Source: a virus
Length of the DNA: 60,502 bases
Reading direction: 5' to 3' (one strand)
Virus record (IMG/VR): IMGVR_UViG_3300023175_000036
Coordinates: 1-60,502 of that record
Shown here: in pieces, positions 16,689 through 28,576 of the stretch
Position numbering within the stretch: position 1 is the first letter of the stretch
Layout of the letters: each line of letters starts with the position of its first letter
Notes under the pieces: generated by a model
The model's input: only the letters and a program-made list of their open reading frames with translations
Told to the model about the DNA's origin: nothing
Database searches by the model: none
Translations under genes and position numbers: made by a program

Positions 16689-16920
16689 GTATTCTCAAAA
16701 ATATATAAATGAATTAGAAAAATTTAAAGATGGTGTTGAAAAAATTACCAATCAAGATTCTAAAAATAAAGGACAATTACTTCTTAAGCAACTTCAAGAT
16801 AAAGTAGATCTAATAGATAGTTTACACAGTGATACAGGGTTTACTAATCTTAAGTTAACCAAAGAAGAAATTGCTAATACTGTTAAAATAAGACACCAGT
16901 TAGCACAACTAATTAAATAG
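16672..16920 (+). CDS. Small helical hypothetical protein
   Basis: An 82-aa lysine-rich protein beginning MIPRLKYSQKYINELEKFKD. It is predicted to be almost entirely helical, with an LLKQLQDKVDLIDSLHSDTG hairpin and a C-terminal IRHQLAQLIK helix. No known domain. It overlaps the cupin gene end by 17 nt in another frame and is the last gene of the plus-strand unit. Its stop overlaps the convergent fibre gene by 8 nt. A 6-bp dyad at 16906-16923 might weakly terminate either strand, but there is no good U-run. Confidence 0.7.
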   Translation: MIPRLKYSQKYINELEKFKDGVEKITNQDSKNKGQLLLKQLQDKVDLIDSLHSDTGFTNLKLTKEEIANTVKIRHQLAQLIK

Positions 16921-18580
16921 TTGAGAATCTTTTAACTTGAATAGATCCTACCATTGCAGGGTGTGCTGTACACTGATATCGATACCCTCCGGAAATGTTT
17001 TCTGGAATTCTCCAATATAACGTTCCGTCTGACCAACCTTGAGCTTGTGATCCAGTCAATACTCTGCCTTCATTTGATACATGAAACACTCCGGTATTGT
17101 ACTGATTGCCTAATGGATCTTGTATTTCAAACGGGTGTCCTGTTGCGTTAGTTAAGTCAAATGATACTGTTGTTCCTGACAATACATAGATTGTTGGGTT
17201 ATTTGCAGAATAGTGTGGTTGGAAAGTATATGCTGTGATGCCAACACTACCTACTTTAAATTGTACCAATGTAGGTTCTACAATGTTGTTGATTGTGAAG
17301 AATCCTGTATCGCCTCTAATAATATTAGGAAATGCATTTTCCCATTCAGTACCATTCCAATATAAAACAGAACCCTTTGCATCTAATGGCGCATTTTGTG
17401 CCCAAGTAAATGCAACATCTGATAAATCTTCAATTGAAGTAGGTACAACAGGAGGTGTATAACTAAACACACCTGATGTATTATTATATGTTAGTGTTCC
17501 ACTGCCGCTTGCTGTATTCTGTGTAACGCTTAAATCAGTTAATGAAATACCTCCGCCGCCGCTTGCTACTGATGCAGGCTCCCAAACACTGTTAGTTGAA
17601 TTCCATGAAAGTACTTCACCGTTGTTAGGAGCCGATGTTGTTGTGTCAACATCGCTTAATGCATCTATGCTAATAGAGTTTAGATCTGTTGCACTAACGC
17701 TGGTAAGATAAGAACCTAAATCACTTATTTGACTTTCTGTAATACTTAATGCACTTTGGTGTTGTGTTACTGAACTTTGTGTAATGTTTGCATTAGGTAC
17801 ATCTGCCCATGTAACTGCTGCTGTTAAATCGTTTGTTTCTGTATAACTTGTTAAGTAACTTGACAAATCAGGTGGTGTATAACGGAACACACCTGTTGTA
17901 TTATCATAACTAATTGCACCGTCACCGCTTGCTGTTAGTTCGTTACCTACACTAAAATCTGCTAGTGTTGCAACTGTAGGAGTATTAGTAAAGTTATTGT
18001 AGTCTAGATAATATGTACTGTCAAATCCGTCTAATGTATCAGCGTCTAATCCACTACCGCCAGATGTTACGTCAAATCCTGGTGCCCAATGATTACCGTC
18101 CCATTTAAGAACTTGTCCAACTGCCGGTGCAGATGATGTTGTATCAACATCACTTAAAAAATCAATACTAAATGATACTAAATCTATATGTAGGTCATTG
18201 CTGTCTGTAGTGAGTTCTGTAGCAATGTTTGTTCTACCCAAAACATTTAAAGTATCTGAACCACTTGCTGCATATTGTCCATCGTCTGTAACAACAGTAC
18301 TAAAAGCATTAGTAACACCACCTGTTACATTTGCATTAATAGTTAGCGTATCACCGGTGATTGCTGTTGTAACATTTGAGCCGCCAGCAACAGTTAATGT
18401 GTCGTTGTTTATATCTGCTGTTGTGCTTCCGGTATCTGCTGCTATTGTATTAAATGTGTTAACATTTACCGATACTTGTGCTGGAACAACATTCCATACA
18501 GTGCCATCAAACTCCCAGGTGGTTCCGCCCGATGTATATTGGTCTCCTATCGAAGGACTATCTGGAAAATTTAAAGCCAT
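16913..18580 (-). CDS. Fibre-like structural protein with C-terminal amicyanin-like cupredoxin domain
   Basis: A 555-aa protein. It starts with MALNFPDSPSIGDQYTSGGT, a marine phage fibre leader with a TWEFDGTVW motif. It continues with Ser/Thr/Asp-rich repeats shared with the 444-aa fibre (TDLSVTQN, YNNFTNTPT, GEVLSWN). From about residue 445 to the end is a cupredoxin-like beta domain (VLSGTTVSFDLTNATGHPFE ... GGYRYQCTAHPAMVGSIQV). All four type-1 copper ligands are present: His482, Cys537, His540 and Met543, with the C-x2-H-x2-M spacing of amicyanin. Copper binding is inferred. The gene follows the protease by 25 nt with a CATAAATAT box and GAGGAT ribosome site. Confidence 0.85.
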   Translation of the reverse strand: MALNFPDSPSIGDQYTSGGTTWEFDGTVWNVVPAQVSVNVNTFNTIAADTGSTTADINNDTLTVAGGSNVTTAITGDTLTINANVTGGVTNAFSTVVTDDGQYAASGSDTLNVLGRTNIATELTTDSNDLHIDLVSFSIDFLSDVDTTSSAPAVGQVLKWDGNHWAPGFDVTSGGSGLDADTLDGFDSTYYLDYNNFTNTPTVATLADFSVGNELTASGDGAISYDNTTGVFRYTPPDLSSYLTSYTETNDLTAAVTWADVPNANITQSSVTQHQSALSITESQISDLGSYLTSVSATDLNSISIDALSDVDTTTSAPNNGEVLSWNSTNSVWEPASVASGGGGISLTDLSVTQNTASGSGTLTYNNTSGVFSYTPPVVPTSIEDLSDVAFTWAQNAPLDAKGSVLYWNGTEWENAFPNIIRGDTGFFTINNIVEPTLVQFKVGSVGITAYTFQPHYSANNPTIYVLSGTTVSFDLTNATGHPFEIQDPLGNQYNTGVFHVSNEGRVLTGSQAQGWSDGTLYWRIPENISGGYRYQCTAHPAMVGSIQVKRFSTI

Positions 18581-18601: not shown

Positions 18602-18610
18602 ATATTTATG
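18602..18610 (-). promoter_or_regulatory. Late promoter box CATAAATAT overlapping protease stop
   Basis: The minus strand reads GCATAAATATG. The TAA stop of the S8 protease is inside the box. A GAGGAT ribosome site and the fibre ATG lie about 22 nt downstream. Confidence 0.5.
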
Positions 18611-20429
18611 CTATAATGTCTAGTGGTTCGTTTACCAAGAAACCAAAAGAGTTATTTACGTCTAATTCTAAAACTGTTCCTGTATTAGCACTAACATTTG
18701 ACACTGTTGTACTTGCACCAGAATTTCTACCTTGAATATTAAATGGTGTTGCAGGATTAGAGGCAAATACAGCAGTTACTTGTATAGCAATACCTGATAC
18801 AATACTGCTTACTGTTACGTTTGTTCCATTATCATCTAACCAAGCACTTGTACTAAGAACTATTCCCCTGTCATTAACAGTGGGAACAATTCCTGTATAA
18901 CTCATAGATCCAACAGTGTTATAAGGATTAGTTACTCCATATCTACTATAAATTATACGTTGTGTTGACCCCATTAAACTTCTAAAGTCGTTGTAATCAT
19001 TTGTTAATCCTGTTGTTGCTACTACACTTTTTGCATCATTTAAAAGTTTATTTTTTAAATAAGCAGGAGATACTCTTGGATTAGCTTGTAAATGTAATGC
19101 TAGTAAACCGGCTACTTGAGGAGCAGCCATACTTGTCCCCCCAATACTCATTATTTTATAATTTGAATTACCTGGATAATCAAACGTAGTATAACCAGAT
19201 GCTTCATTGCTTGATGTACTCATTATACTTTCACCAGGTGCCCATATATTAACCGCAGGACCTTTTTTACTACTTGTTCTTGGTTGATCTAAACTACTTC
19301 CATTTACAGTGCTATCAATGTTACCTACAAAAAATGCATTATCACTATACGGACTACCTGGGCGATGATATAATCTAGAACTTCCGTCAAAATTAGCAAA
19401 ATTATTATAATCTGTTCCGGTTGCTAAATCAGCTTTATAGTAATCATTTCCTGCTGCAATAGTAATATGAATTCCTGCATCTATCATATCTTCAACTTCT
19501 GCATTTGAAAAAGCATTTTGTGCTGGAAAAATTCTAGTACCGCCCAATGGAAGCATTATTCCATAATTTAATAAAAGGTCAGCATCTGATTGACCGCTGT
19601 ATGTCCACGGAGTACCTTGATATGTTCCTCCTGTTGGAGCTGATGTAGAAGTATTTAAATACCCCCAACTCATGTTAACAACAGTAGGACGTCCACTTAC
19701 TTTATTTAAATGCCACAAACGTATAGCATCAAATGCATCAGCAATTGGAATGCCAGTACCGTCAGTGCCTGTTGGTGTTTCTAATCCTTGCAATTTCATT
19801 GAATATATAGCAGCACCTTTTGCCCATCCATAAGTTTTACCTGCTGCTATACCTGCACAATGAGTTCCATGTCCGTCTCTGTCTCTGTAAAAATCTACAC
19901 TTTGAGTTCCGGTTAATCCACTTAATCCATACCAATCAATTTGTACAAGTCTTGTAGTTCCTTCTGAACTTTCCCATTCTGGATGTCCTGGCTGTATACC
20001 GCTATCCATAATAACAATATCAACGCCTGACCCGTCTAATACATAATCATAATTTCCTGCTACTGTTCTACTAGAACCGTATACATTTGTTGTTTCTATA
20101 CTACGTCTTAAACCCCAATTAACATCATTAACACTACTAAACCCTCTATAAAAGGTTCCTTCTTGATATGATCTAAACCCAATTTCAATGTCGTCTCTTT
20201 GATCTGGCGGTAATTCAACTGCTTCAATCCTAGGATCGTTTTCTAATTCTCTTGCTTCTTCATCTGTAAGATACCAATGAGTTATGCGGTTTGATCCTAA
20301 TCTCGGATTTGCTATTTCTACTGTTCTATTTGGTATTGATTCAACACCGTATGTTGCAGACATTTCTGCATCAAGTTCAGCTAGGTTTACACCACGTTTA
20401 ACAATGACAGCATATTCTTTTTCAACCAT
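18606..20429 (-). CDS. Subtilisin-like serine protease (peptidase S8)
   Basis: A 607-aa protein. Residues 5-75 resemble an I9-type propeptide (YAVIVKRGVNLAELD ... LTDEEARELENDPRIEAVEL). The S8 catalytic domain spans about 100-470. Its triad is Asp142 in VIMDSGIQPGHPEW, His187 in DGHGTHCAGIAAG and Ser433 in GGTSMAAPQVAG, with the oxyanion-hole Asn328 in AAGND. All motifs are canonical, so an active endoprotease is likely. There is no signal peptide. About 90 C-terminal residues form a separate Ser/Thr/Val-rich beta domain, perhaps for virion attachment. The gene lies 2 nt after a fibre gene and before the cupredoxin fibre, so a virion-bound protease attacking surface layers, or one maturing fibres, is plausible (inference). 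Confidence 0.92.
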   Translation of the reverse strand: MVEKEYAVIVKRGVNLAELDAEMSATYGVESIPNRTVEIANPRLGSNRITHWYLTDEEARELENDPRIEAVELPPDQRDDIEIGFRSYQEGTFYRGFSSVNDVNWGLRRSIETTNVYGSSRTVAGNYDYVLDGSGVDIVIMDSGIQPGHPEWESSEGTTRLVQIDWYGLSGLTGTQSVDFYRDRDGHGTHCAGIAAGKTYGWAKGAAIYSMKLQGLETPTGTDGTGIPIADAFDAIRLWHLNKVSGRPTVVNMSWGYLNTSTSAPTGGTYQGTPWTYSGQSDADLLLNYGIMLPLGGTRIFPAQNAFSNAEVEDMIDAGIHITIAAGNDYYKADLATGTDYNNFANFDGSSRLYHRPGSPYSDNAFFVGNIDSTVNGSSLDQPRTSSKKGPAVNIWAPGESIMSTSSNEASGYTTFDYPGNSNYKIMSIGGTSMAAPQVAGLLALHLQANPRVSPAYLKNKLLNDAKSVVATTGLTNDYNDFRSLMGSTQRIIYSRYGVTNPYNTVGSMSYTGIVPTVNDRGIVLSTSAWLDDNGTNVTVSSIVSGIAIQVTAVFASNPATPFNIQGRNSGASTTVSNVSANTGTVLELDVNNSFGFLVNEPLDIIA

Positions 20430-20431
20430 AC

Positions 20432-21766
20432 TTAAAACTCGTATATCAATATTATTACATCGCCTACATCTACTGAAGCGCCGTCGCCTTCTCTATAAAG
20501 TATCATATCAAAGCTAGATGTACCTCTTGTAATTGGAATATAAACTCCTGTAGCATTTGTATAATCATTAATAGTTGCTACTACTTGATAATCGCTTACT
20601 GATGCATATGCTGAACTAAAACTAACAGTATAGTCACCTGACGCATTTTGTGTTACACCACTGATTCCTGAACTTCCTGTCCAGGTAGGGGATGCACCTA
20701 GTGTTACATATCCTCCATGAACCGGAGTAGGAACACCGTTAATTGTAACACCGTCTGGTGCTGTTATACTAAATGAACTTGTGCTATCAATTTGGGGTGT
20801 GCCAGCATTTGATGTTTCTAACGTATCAACAGTTAATGTGTTATTAATTGTAACAGCATCATTTGTAGTTGCACCTCTTGCAGTAATATTTGCTAGGGTT
20901 GATGTTTCTGTATAACTTGTTAGATAGCCGCTTAAATCTGGTGGAGCATAACTAAACACTCCAGTTGTATTATTGTAAGCTAAAGATCCGCCGCCATTAG
21001 CGGCATTCTGTGTTACACTTAAATCAGTAAGTGCTATTCCGCCGCCGCCACCTGTTGCTTGTAAATCAGCAGCAGGCGCCCAACTAGTTCCATTCCATTT
21101 TAAAACCTCGCCACTACTTGGTGCAGTTGCACTAACATCTGTTAAGTCTGACAGTGTAGTAGGTACAGTTGGTATAGTTGGTGTGTTTGTAAAATTATTA
21201 TAGTTTAGATAGTAGGCAGAACCTTGTCCATTGAGTGTACTAGCATCTGACGAACTACTACTTCCACCACCACCAGTTGTTGCAGGTTCGATCCATTGAC
21301 TACTAGTTCCATCGTTAACATAAATGTATAATTTACCAGTTTCTGTATTAAGCCATAAATTACCTGAGCTTGGATCACTCGGCACAGTGTCTGATACGTC
21401 TACTGTTGCGCCGCCACCGCTAAGATCTACGTCTTCAGGCATAAAGTGTTCGTGTTCCGCACTCCATACTAGTATTTGACCTGGAGTAGGCGGAGTCAAG
21501 TACATTACATCGCTGAATGCACTGATACTAATTCCACTTAAATCTGTATTTTTTACAAATGCACTAGTATCAACGTTGTTTAAGTCTGCTCGTGCTAATT
21601 CAAATCCAGCGACATCTTCAGATCTTCCGCTATAAACTCTTAGTGAATTTGAATCTCTAGAAAAGAATACTTCACCACTAGAACCAACGTTTCTGTCAAG
21701 AAAGTCTGTTGCTCTAGGAATTATTCGTATTCTGTCAACAATAGGTGCTGTACTCGATCCTGCCAC
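20432..21766 (-). CDS. Tail-fibre-like protein
   Basis: A 444-aa protein. The N-terminal 115 residues (VDRIRIIPRATDFLDRNVG, FFSRDSNSLRVYSG) are a probable attachment domain. The middle contains a GNLWLNTETGKLYIY ... WIEP module, then repeats shared with the 555-aa fibre (LNYNNFTNTPTIPT, GEVLKWNGTSWAPA, LTDLSVTQNAANGGG). The C-terminal 100 residues (WTGSSGISGVTQNASGDYTV, ending GDVIILIYEF) look like a compact fibre-tip domain. A clear AATAAATAC box and TAGGAGAT ribosome site start the unit that also reads the S8 protease and the cupredoxin fibre. Confidence 0.8.
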   Translation of the reverse strand: MAGSSTAPIVDRIRIIPRATDFLDRNVGSSGEVFFSRDSNSLRVYSGRSEDVAGFELARADLNNVDTSAFVKNTDLSGISISAFSDVMYLTPPTPGQILVWSAEHEHFMPEDVDLSGGGATVDVSDTVPSDPSSGNLWLNTETGKLYIYVNDGTSSQWIEPATTGGGGSSSSSDASTLNGQGSAYYLNYNNFTNTPTIPTVPTTLSDLTDVSATAPSSGEVLKWNGTSWAPAADLQATGGGGGIALTDLSVTQNAANGGGSLAYNNTTGVFSYAPPDLSGYLTSYTETSTLANITARGATTNDAVTINNTLTVDTLETSNAGTPQIDSTSSFSITAPDGVTINGVPTPVHGGYVTLGASPTWTGSSGISGVTQNASGDYTVSFSSAYASVSDYQVVATINDYTNATGVYIPITRGTSSFDMILYREGDGASVDVGDVIILIYEF

Positions 21767-21788: not shown

Positions 21789-21797
21789 GTATTTATT
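21789..21797 (-). promoter_or_regulatory. Late promoter box AATAAATAC
   Basis: The minus strand reads TCTAAATAAATACAGTATAG followed by TTAGGAGAT and the ATG at 21766. It is the likely start of the fibre, protease, cupredoxin-fibre unit. Confidence 0.6.
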
Positions 21798-21802
21798 TAG
21801 AA

Positions 21803-22381
21803 TCAGTAGCGTCCAACACCTAGTATATAAACTCCATTCCACCAACCGTTTTCGTTTTCAACTAATTCTTCAAGAATAATACGTTCAAAATGTATATGTA
21901 ACCCACTTTCTTCTAATGCTTGTTTGGCGCCTTCTACAGTGCCATCAAAATTTGCATCGTCAACTATTACTATTGCCTGATTAGAAAGTGCAGGAGCATA
22001 ATGTTTGATTGCAGCTTTGGTTTCATTTTTGCCGTGAGGACCATCATAAAAGAAAACATCAATAGGTTTAAAATCTGAAATGTCAACTTGATATAAATCA
22101 CCATCGTAAATTTTAATATCGTTATCACCTTGATGTGCTTGTATGTTTTTAAGAAAATCTTCTTTACTGTTTGGTGGTAATCTTGGATGATCCTCTCTAA
22201 CAGGTTGAACGTTTTCTTCCCAATTATCAACAAAATATGCAGTTAACTTATTACCATCGATAGCAGGAACAGCAGTTGCTCCTAGATAACATCCTACTTC
22301 TAGATATGTTTCGGCGCAACTACAAACATTGTGTAGGAAAGATTGTATTTTATGAGATGTTAGTCCGTGTATGCGCCACAT
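21803..22381 (-). CDS. Class I SAM-dependent methyltransferase-like protein
   Basis: A 192-aa protein with the Rossmann methyltransferase layout: motif I YLEVGCYLGATAVPAI (residues about 27-42), an acidic strand end AYFVDNWEEN, IDVFFYDGPHGKNETKAAI (a motif-II-like region typical of the Methyltransf_24/cephalosporin-hydroxylase-like group), and VIVDDANFDGTVEGAKQAL. The FYDGPHG motif is characteristic of enzymes that act on sugars or small molecules, but the substrate is unknown. Its ATG lies 22 nt inside the end of the U32-like gene, so the two are probably translated together and may modify the same target. A late promoter unit from about 24.3 kb reads it. Confidence 0.82.
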   Translation of the reverse strand: MWRIHGLTSHKIQSFLHNVCSCAETYLEVGCYLGATAVPAIDGNKLTAYFVDNWEENVQPVREDHPRLPPNSKEDFLKNIQAHQGDNDIKIYDGDLYQVDISDFKPIDVFFYDGPHGKNETKAAIKHYAPALSNQAIVIVDDANFDGTVEGAKQALEESGLHIHFERIILEELVENENGWWNGVYILGVGRY

Positions 22382-23415
22382 ATCGATTCCACTATAATGT
22401 TATTAATTGTATATGATTTTTGCCCGTTTTTAGCTTCATAAAGTTTATCACACTTGTTACAGTCCCAACAATCAAACTTACAGTTTTTAATAAACTGTCT
22501 CCAAGCATCTATTGGTTTACCTTTTAAATTAGTGTTATTAATATATCCGTCAAAGTCAGAAAATAGTATTTCTTCTTTATTTTTATACTTTTTAATAATA
22601 TCCATAGTAGAATATAACTGTGCTATACTTTCTCTACCATGCATTTTAATAACGTCTACATAATAAAGCATTTCAACCCAGTCTTGTCTCCAAGGAGGAA
22701 TGTTTGCTGTCTTAAGTGGTGTAGCAGGATCTGTTACGTCCCATTTAGGACAACTTACTCTACTGATTGCATCATTAAAATATTGAGGACCTGTAGTACG
22801 TGTGTTATTAAAATGAAAATGTTCACCCATTACTGGACAACTTCCTAGGCATCCTTCGTTACCTAAAAGTGCAATTTTAATACCGTACTTTTGTTTAACT
22901 TTTTTAATTTTAATAAGTTCGTCTTTATTACGCATTAAATCTCTATCTATGTTAATATAGTGAAATCCTGCTTCTGCTTGTTTTGCAACATCAGCTGCTG
23001 TATTCACTTCTCTCAATATAGTATTTTTAATTTGTAATTGTGGGAACTCTTTTTTTATTTGTCCTGTCATTACCCAATGGGTGTGAGGAATAGTTGCAGA
23101 TCGAATACCTTTATGATGATATAAAGGTTTAAAATTTTCAATCCACAAATCAAGATTACTTTGATCAGGACGGACCTGCATGTTGTTAAATGTTGCTGAT
23201 AGCGGTATTCCTAACTTGTCCTGAATAATGAGTGAATTTTCAATTAAGTCGTTAGGATCATTAACAAATACATCTCCCATCGCGTCCTGATCAAATGGGG
23301 GTATACGACTTGTTATATAAACATCGTATATTAAGTCTTTATGATCAGCGCAAAATTGATAGAATTCTTCAAATTGACGCTGATTTAGTTTTGGGTTTAA
23401 TGGTACACTAAACAT
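22360..23415 (-). CDS. TIM-barrel-like protein with Cys clusters, resembling peptidase family U32
   Basis: A 351-aa protein. Alternating strands and helices (LIYDVYITSRIPP, IPLSATFNNMQVRP, GFHYINIDRDLMRN, YGIKIALLGNEGCLGSCP) suggest a TIM barrel. The NEGCLGSCP motif (Cys189, Cys193), Cys222 and a C-terminal Cys set at 312, 316, 319 and 322 could hold an iron-sulfur cluster, as in U32-family RNA-hydroxylating or ubiquinone-pathway proteins. The U32 signature is not perfectly matched. The C-terminal C-x3-C-x2-C also occurs in radical-SAM enzymes, but its position at the end and the absence of other motifs argue against that. Overlap with the methyltransferase gene suggests a two-enzyme modification unit. 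Function is otherwise unknown. Confidence 0.65.
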   Translation of the reverse strand: MFSVPLNPKLNQRQFEEFYQFCADHKDLIYDVYITSRIPPFDQDAMGDVFVNDPNDLIENSLIIQDKLGIPLSATFNNMQVRPDQSNLDLWIENFKPLYHHKGIRSATIPHTHWVMTGQIKKEFPQLQIKNTILREVNTAADVAKQAEAGFHYINIDRDLMRNKDELIKIKKVKQKYGIKIALLGNEGCLGSCPVMGEHFHFNNTRTTGPQYFNDAISRVSCPKWDVTDPATPLKTANIPPWRQDWVEMLYYVDVIKMHGRESIAQLYSTMDIIKKYKNKEEILFSDFDGYINNTNLKGKPIDAWRQFIKNCKFDCWDCNKCDKLYEAKNGQKSYTINNIIVESICGAYTD

Positions 23416-25135: not shown

Positions 25136-26287
25136 TTAAAATCCTGATCCTGCTATTACTGTTGCTGCTCCTGTACTACAAGCACCTGATGATTGTCCGT
25201 AGTGTCCTTTAGGCATAGCATTTGCACCTAAAGTAATTTGTGAGTCTGAGGTATAACTTTGTTTCACTGTATGGTTATTTTGTTGTCCATCGTAGTGTCC
25301 CATTATATAACCCCAATCTTGTCCTTCTTCTGAATTTTCTTCTCCATAAGCTCGGACTTTGTTAAATGTTGATAATGTTGCTCCGTTAGCATCATTAAAT
25401 TTAGCAATACCACTTGTAACATTGTTGCCACTAAATGCATAATGATATCCGTATTTACTTCCTAGGTTCTTAGTTTGGTAACTAGTTTTACCGTAGTAAC
25501 CTCCTTGATCCCAATTTGCTGTCCAAGTTGCATTAGCCCAAGTTACGTATTGATATTCGTTTCCATTGTGATTAAAGTAGCCTCTAAGTTCGCCTCCAAC
25601 AGCATCGCCTCTACCACCATAGTTAGAACCCCAACCGGTGTACATAACTTCTGTTGGAAAATGCATACGGTTAGTACTGGAAGGACCGCCTCCAGTTATC
25701 CAACCACTTTGTCCTTTCATATCTTCAGTTGCTGCTGCATCAACACGAGATACGTCCATTTTCATACCACCAACGTGATTACCAAATCCAGCAGTACCAT
25801 AACCTAGTCCTTGGTTCTTTGGATCATTGCCTACATATCCATAACTAATACCGCTAGATGAAAACCCATCTGCTGTAAACATTCTAATAGATCCGTTTGC
25901 TAAACTGTAAGAACATATTTGATCATGTGAGTTAGCATATCCATTAGTTGAACAGATATATGCGTGATAATCACTCCAAAAACCATTTGTATAAGCACAA
26001 TAGTTTGATAACTGTTCGCCGCAATATACTGTTGTATCAGTTTGGTGCCATGTTTTGTTTACACTGCGCCAAGGAGTAGATCCTTTGTATCCACCTGCTA
26101 GGTATCCGTGTGTAAATATTGATCTGTAACGCCACTGTGCGTTGTCTGGAGTAAAGCCAGTAAACCCGCTACCCATGTAGCCCCAGTTTGTGCCGTCACT
26201 ACCGTTTGATATCAGTTTAGAACCTCTAGAATTTGCGTCTGAAGTTGGTACTGGTGTTACTTGTACTGCTCCTAGATAAAATGCCAT
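25136..26287 (-). CDS. Structural paralogue 3 of 3 (tandem family)
   Basis: A 383-aa protein beginning MAFYLGAVQVTPVPTSDANS. It is rich in Gly, Ser, Tyr, Trp and Asn and has no long helices, as expected for a beta-structured virion surface protein. It shares with the two genes before it WRYRSI(F/Y)THGYLA, NPWRSVNKTWH, ANGSIRMFTADGFSSSG, GNDPKN, GELRGYF and the very conserved C-terminus (GQQNNHT to GACSTGAATV). Compared with its sisters the variable positions concentrate in residues about 100-130 and 230-290. It starts 1 nt after the stop of the middle copy (TAACATG). Function unknown; a host-recognition or decoration protein is likely from context. Confidence 0.82.
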   Translation of the reverse strand: MAFYLGAVQVTPVPTSDANSRGSKLISNGSDGTNWGYMGSGFTGFTPDNAQWRYRSIFTHGYLAGGYKGSTPWRSVNKTWHQTDTTVYCGEQLSNYCAYTNGFWSDYHAYICSTNGYANSHDQICSYSLANGSIRMFTADGFSSSGISYGYVGNDPKNQGLGYGTAGFGNHVGGMKMDVSRVDAAATEDMKGQSGWITGGGPSSTNRMHFPTEVMYTGWGSNYGGRGDAVGGELRGYFNHNGNEYQYVTWANATWTANWDQGGYYGKTSYQTKNLGSKYGYHYAFSGNNVTSGIAKFNDANGATLSTFNKVRAYGEENSEEGQDWGYIMGHYDGQQNNHTVKQSYTSDSQITLGANAMPKGHYGQSSGACSTGAATVIAGSGF

Positions 26288-26288
26288 G

Positions 26289-27431
26289 TTACATTCCGCT
26301 CCCTACTACTGTTGCTGCTCCAGTTGAACATGCGCCTGATGATTGTCCATAATGTCCTTTAGGCATTGCACCTGCGCCAAGTGTTACTTCTGAATCGCTT
26401 GAGTGACTCTGTTTAATAGTATGGTTATTTTGTTGTCCATCATAGTGACCCATTATATAACCATGATCTTGACCATCTTCTACGTTATCTTCACCGTAAG
26501 AGCGAACCTTGTTAAAGTTTGCTAATGTTGCACCAGTTGCATCACTAAATCTTGCTTTACCTGAAGTAACATTATTGCCAGTACCAATGTAATGATGTCC
26601 CCATTTAGTAGACTGTATTTTACAATGGTTATCTTTACCCCAACCACCGCCTTGTGGCCAGTTGGTTGTCCAAGTACTATTACTCCATGTTACATATCTA
26701 TACTGTGTTCCCGACCACTGGAAGTAGCCTCTTAGCTCACCAGCACCTGCTGTGCCCCTACCGCTTTGACCTGAATCCCAGCCTGCATACATAACTTCTG
26801 TTGGGAAGTGCAAACGATTGGTAGTAGTACTCCCGCCGCCTGTCATCCAACCGCCTTGTCCTTTAATATCTTGTGTTCCGGCACCGTCTACGATAGCTGT
26901 GTTAAGTTTCATACCACCAACGTGGTTACTAAATCCGCCCGATCCGTATGTTAAGCCTTCGTTCTTTGGATCATTGCCTTCGTAGCCATAAGTTAATCCA
27001 GATGATGAAAATCCATCAGCAGTAAACATACGTATTGTGCCATTTGCTAGACTATAACTAGAAATACTGTCTCCGGCGGCATTAAATCCGCCACCAGTTT
27101 GAATATAACCGTTGTAGTCAGAATAAAAACCATCGCAGTATGCTTGTGCAAAACTAATTTGTTCACCTAAATAAATTGTAGTATCAGTTTGGTGCCAAGT
27201 TTTATTTACCGAACGCCATGGATTAGAACCTTTATATCCTGCTGCTAGATATCCATGCGTGTAAATTGATCTGTAACGCCACTGTGCGTTATCTATAGCA
27301 CCACTACTAGTATTACCCATGTATCCCCAAAATGAACCTGAGGATCCGTCTGAAATAAGTGATGCTCCCCTTGATGCATCATTGCCTGGAGGAACAAATT
27401 CTAATGTAACATTTCCTAATTTAAATGCCAT
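26289..27431 (-). CDS. Structural paralogue 2 of 3 (tandem family)
   Basis: A 380-aa protein starting MAFKLGNVTLEFVPPGNDAS. The frame is open upstream to 27473, but the added residues (Cys/Arg-rich, antisense to nothing conserved) do not match the sister proteins, while ATG at 27431 aligns with their starts and overlaps the previous stop by one base (TAATG). It shares nearly all of its C-terminal third with copy 1 (HCKIQSTKWGHHY, GNNVTSGKARFSDATG, FNKVRSYGEDNVEDGQDHGY), more than with copy 3, so copies 1 and 2 are the closest pair or have exchanged sequence. Beta-rich and Gly/Ser-rich, probably virion-exposed. Confidence 0.82.
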   Translation of the reverse strand: MAFKLGNVTLEFVPPGNDASRGASLISDGSSGSFWGYMGNTSSGAIDNAQWRYRSIYTHGYLAAGYKGSNPWRSVNKTWHQTDTTIYLGEQISFAQAYCDGFYSDYNGYIQTGGGFNAAGDSISSYSLANGTIRMFTADGFSSSGLTYGYEGNDPKNEGLTYGSGGFSNHVGGMKLNTAIVDGAGTQDIKGQGGWMTGGGSTTTNRLHFPTEVMYAGWDSGQSGRGTAGAGELRGYFQWSGTQYRYVTWSNSTWTTNWPQGGGWGKDNHCKIQSTKWGHHYIGTGNNVTSGKARFSDATGATLANFNKVRSYGEDNVEDGQDHGYIMGHYDGQQNNHTIKQSHSSDSEVTLGAGAMPKGHYGQSSGACSTGAATVVGSGM

Positions 27432-28576
27432 TATCCGTGTCCTCCTAAAACAGTTGCAGCAGCAGTTGCGCAAGCACCTGAACTTTGTCCGTAGTGTCCT
27501 TTAGGCATACAATCAGCACCCATTGTTACTTCTGAATCAGTTGAGTGTGTTTGCTTAATTGTGTGGTTATTTTGTTGTCCGTCAAAGTGACCCATAATAT
27601 AACCATGATCCTGACCGTCTTCAACATTATCTTCACCGTAACTTCTTACTTTGTTAAAGTTTGCTAGTGTAGTTCCTGTTGAATCGCTAAATCTTGCTTT
27701 ACCTGAAGTAACGTTATTGCCAGTACCAACATAATGGTGTCCCCATTTAGTTGATTGTATTTTACAATGGAAGTCTTTACCCCAACCACCCCAAACACCG
27801 GTACCAGACCATGTTGAGTTTGACCAAGTTACATATCGATAGTCGGATCCCCATTCAAAATAACCTCTAAGTTCTCCCGAAGCTGCTGAATTTCCTCTAC
27901 CGCTTTGACCTGAATCCCAACCAGTATACATAACTTCACTTGGAAAATGCATACGGTTAGTTGCACTAGAGTTGCCACCGTTAATCCATCCACCTTGTCC
28001 TTTGATGTCTGAACAAGCTGAACAATCAACTCTGGCTACGTCCATTGCCATACCACCTACGTGGTTACCAAAGCCAGCAGAACCATAACCTAGTCCTTCG
28101 TTCTTTGGATCATTGCCTACGTATCCATAACTAATACCACTAGATGAAAATCCATCAGCAGTAAACATACGTATACTTCCGTTTGCTAGACTATAACTCG
28201 AAATATTTGCTGTTGCGCCACTAAAGCCACCACCAGATACAATATAACCATAAAAGTCACTATAGTTACCATCTGTGTATGCTTGAGTAAATGATAATTG
28301 TTCACCACAGTAAAGTGTTGTATCGGTTAAATGCCAAGTTTTGTTTACACTACGCCATGGATTAGATCCTTTATAGCCTGCTGCTAGATATCCATGCGTG
28401 TAAATGGAACGATATCTCCAAGCATTGTTATCAACTTGACCTATGCCTAGTGATCCGCCGCCCATGTAGCCCCAAAATGCTGAACCTTCACCATCTGCCA
28501 TAAGTTCAGCACCGCGAGTTGCATCGCTACCTGCCGGTACTGCTGTAACTTCTTGGGTTCCGATGTAGAATGCCAT
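27431..28576 (-). CDS. Structural paralogue 1 of 3 (tandem family)
   Basis: A 381-aa protein starting MAFYIGTQEVTAVPAGSDAT; first of the three in transcription order. It carries the family core WGYMGGGS, NAWRYRSIYTHGYLAAGY, FTADGFSSSGISYGYVGNDP, GWDSGQSGRG and the C-terminal block ending MPKGHYGQSSGACATAAATV. It starts directly after the stop of the S74 fibre gene (TAA ATG) and is coupled to copy 2 by a TAATG overlap. The adjacency to a chaperone-bearing fibre suggests that these are tip or side proteins of the same adsorption organelle (inference). Confidence 0.82.
   Translation of the reverse strand: MAFYIGTQEVTAVPAGSDATRGAELMADGEGSAFWGYMGGGSLGIGQVDNNAWRYRSIYTHGYLAAGYKGSNPWRSVNKTWHLTDTTLYCGEQLSFTQAYTDGNYSDFYGYIVSGGGFSGATANISSYSLANGSIRMFTADGFSSSGISYGYVGNDPKNEGLGYGSAGFGNHVGGMAMDVARVDCSACSDIKGQGGWINGGNSSATNRMHFPSEVMYTGWDSGQSGRGNSAASGELRGYFEWGSDYRYVTWSNSTWSGTGVWGGWGKDFHCKIQSTKWGHHYVGTGNNVTSGKARFSDSTGTTLANFNKVRSYGEDNVEDGQDHGYIMGHFDGQQNNHTIKQTHSTDSEVTMGADCMPKGHYGQSSGACATAAATVLGGHG

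Follow-up and report, generated by a model that had tools for sequence, protein, structure and literature searches.

What would a complete subtilisin-like protease do between two tail-fibre genes of a phage? Such a gene is present in the DNA analysed here, a viral stretch of 60,502 nucleotides (positions 1 to 60,502 of IMG/VR record IMGVR_UViG_3300023175_000036) that we call the window. A sequence-only reading of this stretch had proposed that the enzyme is carried on the virion and digests a host surface protein, for example an S-layer, or that it matures fibre proteins. The gene is a single open reading frame that occupies exactly positions 18606-20429 on the minus strand and encodes a 607-aa protein of peptidase family S8, the subtilases (PF00082, 1.5e-30; phrog_9158, 9.7e-66). 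The match to the PHROG 9158 profile, a phage family without an assigned function in PHROG, extends over aa 3-486 and takes in both the propeptide and the catalytic domain.

The catalytic subtilase domain comprises aa 133-472 (19014-20033, minus strand) as delimited by the Pfam and structure matches. Alignment of the motifs placed the catalytic residues Asp142 (codon at 20004-20006, in VDIVIMDSGI), His187 (19869-19871, in DGHGTHCAGI) and Ser433 (19131-19133, in GGTSMAAPQVAG) and the oxyanion-hole Asn328 (19446-19448, in IAAGNDYY), all on the minus strand. These are the four residues that had been named at the outset, and the protein has the Asp/His/Ser triad in canonical motifs and the Asn by which family S8 is recognized. 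All four are retained in 103 of 103 aligned phage sequences, namely the window protein and the matches from 102 related frames, a set with many near-identical members. A second set of 12 divergent sequences, for the most part sharing just 24-34% identity with the window protein, likewise keeps all four. Pairwise dN/dS across the S8 genes is about 0.05-0.25, and the window-type gene is under purifying selection. An AlphaFold2 model of the protease (mean pLDDT 79.7, confident core) was matched by Foldseek to proteinase K-type enzymes with E-values of 1e-16 to 1e-18 and a TM-score by target of about 0.83. The protein is therefore predicted to have a proteinase K-type subtilisin fold. Proteinase K, aqualysin and keratinase share this fold and active site but are secreted cellular enzymes that have a signal peptide and no fibre module.

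Enzyme folds are sometimes reused in fibres, and the subtilase fold could in principle be kept only as a binding scaffold with no relevance of catalysis. Two BFVD entries, A0A1D8KFC6 (S-CAM1) and M4QD42 (MED4-213), are named as tail fibre or Ig-domain proteins and have predicted structures that match the S8 model, a match of fold only; on these models they are possibly degenerate S8 domains in fibres. For the window protein we consider a purely structural role extremely improbable because the four catalytic residues are invariant in the 103 sequences.

The regions on either side of the catalytic domain bear on how the enzyme is made and where it goes. The N-terminal region of about 95 amino acids (20145-20429, minus strand) was predicted by AlphaFold2 to have a beta-alpha-beta-alpha-beta topology, with strands at residues 4-10, 49-54 and 68-72 and helices at 16-27 and 56-63, and it contains conserved columns. 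The topology of residues 1-72 and the conservation fit the I9-like propeptide that had been suggested; Pfam, however, returned no I9 match to the protein, so the likeness is one of predicted structure. The probable cleavage site lies N-terminal to NWGL (104-107), somewhere within about aa 75-100. We looked for a hydrophobic N-terminal segment in the protease and found none, and the protein thus has no classical signal peptide, as initially noted. The extra C-terminal domain is also real, spanning about aa 500-607. Within it, aa 530-606 (18612-18842, minus strand) share 46% identity (E 1.7e-17) with aa 1115-1192 of a sister-phage protein of 1947 aa, the orthologue of the 1833-aa tail fibre encoded in the window itself. 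This homology marks the C-terminal module as fibre-derived and, together with the fibre genes on either side, links the enzyme to the tail or fibre apparatus.

Both neighbours of the protease gene match tail-fibre PHROGs, confirming its placement between two fibre genes. The upstream gene (20432-21766, minus strand; phrog_9729, 3.4e-29) encodes 444 aa, with 2 nt between its end and the start codon of the protease, and the downstream gene (16913-18580, minus strand; phrog_677, 1.1e-51) encodes 555 aa and starts 25 nt downstream of the protease gene. The downstream fibre had been described as carrying a copper domain. Its C-terminal region, aa 462-550 (16931-17197, minus strand), resembles cupredoxins in its predicted structure (E about 1e-4, partial TM-scores), and its His-Cys-His-Met copper ligands are near invariant in relatives, both of which favour a cupredoxin-like domain; the sequence match is weak, PF00127 giving an E of 0.035, below the cut-off. 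In other loci a domain of this kind is fused to S8 proteases or ends the upstream fibres (L065, L070, L074, L083 and L099).

The canonical T4 late promoter, TATAAATA, is rarer in the window than chance predicts (1 copy versus 9.15 expected), and we rejected it as the promoter in use. For this reason the looser ATAAATA was compared with all other 7-mers. No other 7-mer is as concentrated as ATAAATA, which closely resembles the T4 late-promoter core, in the interval 15-60 nt before the gene starts of the window. This interval makes up 1.5% of positions and holds 10 of the 15 ATAAATA copies, suggesting that the phage group to which the window belongs uses a variant late-promoter consensus. A late-promoter-like motif of this type, CTAAATAAATA (21790-21800, minus strand), lies about 30 nt upstream of the 444-aa fibre gene and hence of the fibre-protease unit, in agreement with the idea of a late unit. 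Another ATAAATA (18603-18609, minus strand) precedes the downstream fibre gene by 29 nt. A motif search of the window gave no ATAAATA directly before the protease gene, which points to probable co-transcription of the protease with the 444-aa fibre.

The terminase and sheath proteins of the window are nearest those of the PA5oct-type, Atu_ph07 and Phosso jumbo myoviruses, with 46-54% identity. The source, a large marine phage, groups by these proteins with PA5oct/Atu_ph07-type jumbo myoviruses. The window is T4-like in the wide sense, as had been assumed, but does not come from T4 itself, and its closest core genes are not from the Kyanoviridae, the T4-like cyanophages. A DNA-level comparison of the first 25 kb of the window gave no closely related GenBank phage; near-identical and 68%-identical protease loci are on other IMG/VR contigs, where the gene order is unchanged. 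To our knowledge the T4 core gene set includes no S8 enzyme, and the earlier statement to this effect agrees with what is established; S8 genes are nonetheless common in cyanomyoviruses.

Using tblastn we found relatives of the protease in at least 43 GenBank phage records. The majority belong to Synechococcus or Prochlorococcus phages or to single-cell marine viruses, and several relatives are already annotated as 'subtilisin-like serine protease'. An alignment-based scan of IMG/VR gave at least 584 stretches encoding relatives. The gene family itself is thus not new. The cyanomyovirus (Kyanoviridae) members, which belong to PHROG 9158 and include P-SSM2 PSSM2_297 and those of S-RSM4, S-WAM2, S-H38, Sf-FR1 and S-CREM1, are homologous to the window protein over the propeptide and catalytic domain (24-34% identity), have the same tetrad and follow directly after a fibre-like gene, but they are from another phage lineage and their C-termini lack a fibre module of the kind seen in the window. 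Cellular relatives came from only six loci in a genome scan, all in metagenome-assembled bins, and these are possibly misbinned phage DNA. Proteins of the S8 family range from about 490 to 2114 aa, the long members carrying Laminin_G_3, Calx-beta-like, Ig-like, glycine-rich or plastocyanin-like domains after the protease. Such fused binding modules are consistent with an enzyme that stays bound to the particle as it acts. Matches to AGS_C and Reeler in the fused C-termini were treated as generic beta-sandwich matches. Two loci have tandem S8 genes (L068:4707-8310 and L102:5822-9542), the first copy being 684-718 aa long with a different N-terminus, and at L070:5420-9565 the S8 protein has Calx-beta-like repeats, a His-rich insert of about 200 aa (EHVFHTLHMHG) and a C-terminal cupredoxin.

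The S8 start codon is within -4 to +14 nt of the stop of the upstream gene in 84 of 99 loci, which are not all independent. Such tight spacing means little by itself because the same range holds for 14 of the 33 same-strand gene pairs of the window, but its recurrence across loci adds weight. A survey of S8 genes beside fibre genes had been recommended, and by simple criteria the upstream gene is fibre-like in 54 of 85 loci. The pairing is frequent rather than strict, and we did not uphold the idea of a fibre-S8 pair in every phage; among the other partners are those at L039, a sheath-stabiliser homologue, and at L073, an endolysin.

Two homologues link the family to virions. The first is ORF228 of S-SCSM1 (QFG06492.1), a 1411-aa protein with a homologous S8 domain, an intact tetrad and fibre neighbours that differs from the window protein in its length and in its C-terminal Laminin_G_3 domains. 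Mass spectrometry detected 45 S-SCSM1 proteins, among which ORF213 and ORF214 are named (PMC9602691). The record annotates ORF228 as 'baseplate wedge subunit (virion protein)'. The same '(virion protein)' label is on ORF213 and ORF214 and is absent from neighbouring hub proteins, so it very probably denotes detection by mass spectrometry. The main text of the S-SCSM1 paper does not contain the words 'protease', 'peptidase' or 'subtilisin' (PMC9602691). A virion protein annotated as a baseplate wedge subunit is, by its sequence, in part an intact protease. The second homologue is in Atu_ph07, where most of the virion proteins identified by mass spectrometry fall in clusters that include CDS 284-329 (PMC6102473). 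Counting from ClpA (gp292) and DnaJ (gp293), the S8 protein is gp329, the last of that cluster, and the same count puts the second tail fibre at gp327, in agreement with that paper. From this cluster boundary we infer that gp329 itself was detected. The 'S8 family peptidase' of Atu_ph07 and Phosso lies in a tail-fibre cluster of the jumbo group nearest the window by sheath and terminase, but its identity to the window protein is about 26% (Phosso), its length is 1250-1290 aa, its C-terminal part is different and no fibre gene directly precedes it.

Although this virion evidence comes from homologues about 25-33% identical to the window protein, one through a record label and one through a cluster boundary, together with the fused fibre and lectin modules it lends good support to the proposal of a virion-borne enzyme. 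We hold it to be very likely that the window protease is associated with the virion. An enzyme that stays off the virion and degrades host proteins inside the infected cell would also need no signal peptide, and host proteins are the suggested targets of other proteases from phages (PMC7824862). The virion label on the S-SCSM1 homologue, the fibre-derived C-terminal module and the late-type promoter motif all argue against this, making an intracellular role very unlikely.

Comparison of sister phages addresses whether the enzyme matures the fibres. At this genomic site, 19 of 32 sister loci have S8 and the other 13, with room for the gene, lack it there. The S8 gene is thus accessory and not generally required for infection. 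One contig without S8 at the site carries it elsewhere, which shows that a phage may still have the gene when this site is empty. Among Synechococcus phage records, only 33 match S8 versus 378 that match the sheath. The cupredoxin fibre is kept without S8 at this site in L138, L139, L141, L144, L146 and L147, and in L124 the two fibre types are adjacent with nothing between them. We also considered whether sister phages have an endosialidase-like enzyme in place of S8. This was dropped since the End_beta_barrel match was weak and below the cut-off, and the candidate (1665 aa) is a highly conserved virion structural protein.

A maturation protease would cut the neighbouring fibres, or its own fused domains, inside the cell for trimerisation or assembly, and any copy in the virion would be a leftover. 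The position of the gene between fibre genes with tight spacing and the lack of a secretion signal are compatible with this, and maturation is a common interpretation for phage peptidases whose occurrence follows virion type (PMC7824862). The sister fibres, however, persist without S8 and so do not need it as a processing enzyme at this site. The scarcity of S8 relative to the sheath and the fusion of surface-binding modules to the protease itself also speak against maturation. This half of the original proposal is therefore disfavoured, and we rate it as unlikely.

The best reading of the locus, and one we judge somewhat more probable than its alternatives combined, is a tail-borne protein depolymerase. 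The window protein would be a virion-associated, proteinase K-like S8 subtilase, made late in infection without a secretion signal as a proenzyme whose I9-like propeptide is presumably removed autocatalytically. It would be built into the tail-fibre or baseplate apparatus, probably through its C-terminal fibre module, alongside the fibre encoded upstream. At adsorption the mature enzyme may cut host-surface proteins or glycoproteins and so clear the way for the receptor or expose it. Action on a host surface protein is a plausible choice and, we infer, the best of the possible functions; an S-layer would be no more than a possible target.

The enzyme could instead act late in the cycle, during lysis or on virions that adhere to debris, and free progeny from surface proteins of the host without aiding entry, as a receptor-destroying enzyme would. 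An enzyme bound to the virion could function in entry as well as in release, the promoter motif is of late type, and at L073:7114-10154 the S8 gene, whose product has a C-terminus resembling the cupredoxin fibre, directly follows an endolysin gene (phrog_181, 5.5e-76). In most loci, however, the neighbours are fibres or other virion proteins and not lysis genes, and a role confined to release seems quite unlikely.

The role proposed for the tail-borne protease resembles that of virion-associated depolymerases, the tailspike polysaccharide enzymes, in that a tail enzyme opens the host surface, but those enzymes cut polysaccharides or peptidoglycan. The words 'protease' and 'subtilisin' are both absent from a depolymerase review (PMC6116005), and a search of largely open-access literature found no experimental paper on tail-borne subtilases. 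What is new here is the link between an annotated protease, a virion-labelled homologue and a fibre-derived C-terminal module, and the view of the gene as a swappable tail cassette. That these genes encode a widespread kind of protein depolymerase on the tails of aquatic T4-type and jumbo myoviruses, each enzyme part of a swappable fibre cassette and reaching the host surface as an auto-activating proenzyme, is a tentative generalization whose chances we put a little short of even. If such virions digest protein on the host surface, protease-carrying tails would be a separate strategy for entry or receptor exposure that is widely shared by marine phages, and the barriers that phages can degrade would include proteinaceous surfaces as well as polysaccharide capsules. 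Members of this large family are also present in several isolates that infect laboratory strains of Synechococcus and Prochlorococcus.

Directly upstream of the fibre-protease unit, at 21803-23415, is a pair of genes that match the two halves of phrog_1458. One encodes a protein with the cysteine motifs GNEGCLGSCPV and CWDCNKC and no Pfam match, which we take to recall iron-sulphur U32-type proteins, and it is followed by a gene for a Methyltransf_24 protein; the two are possibly fibre-modifying enzymes. At 25136-28576 there are three tandem paralogues of one unknown family (phrog_1417).
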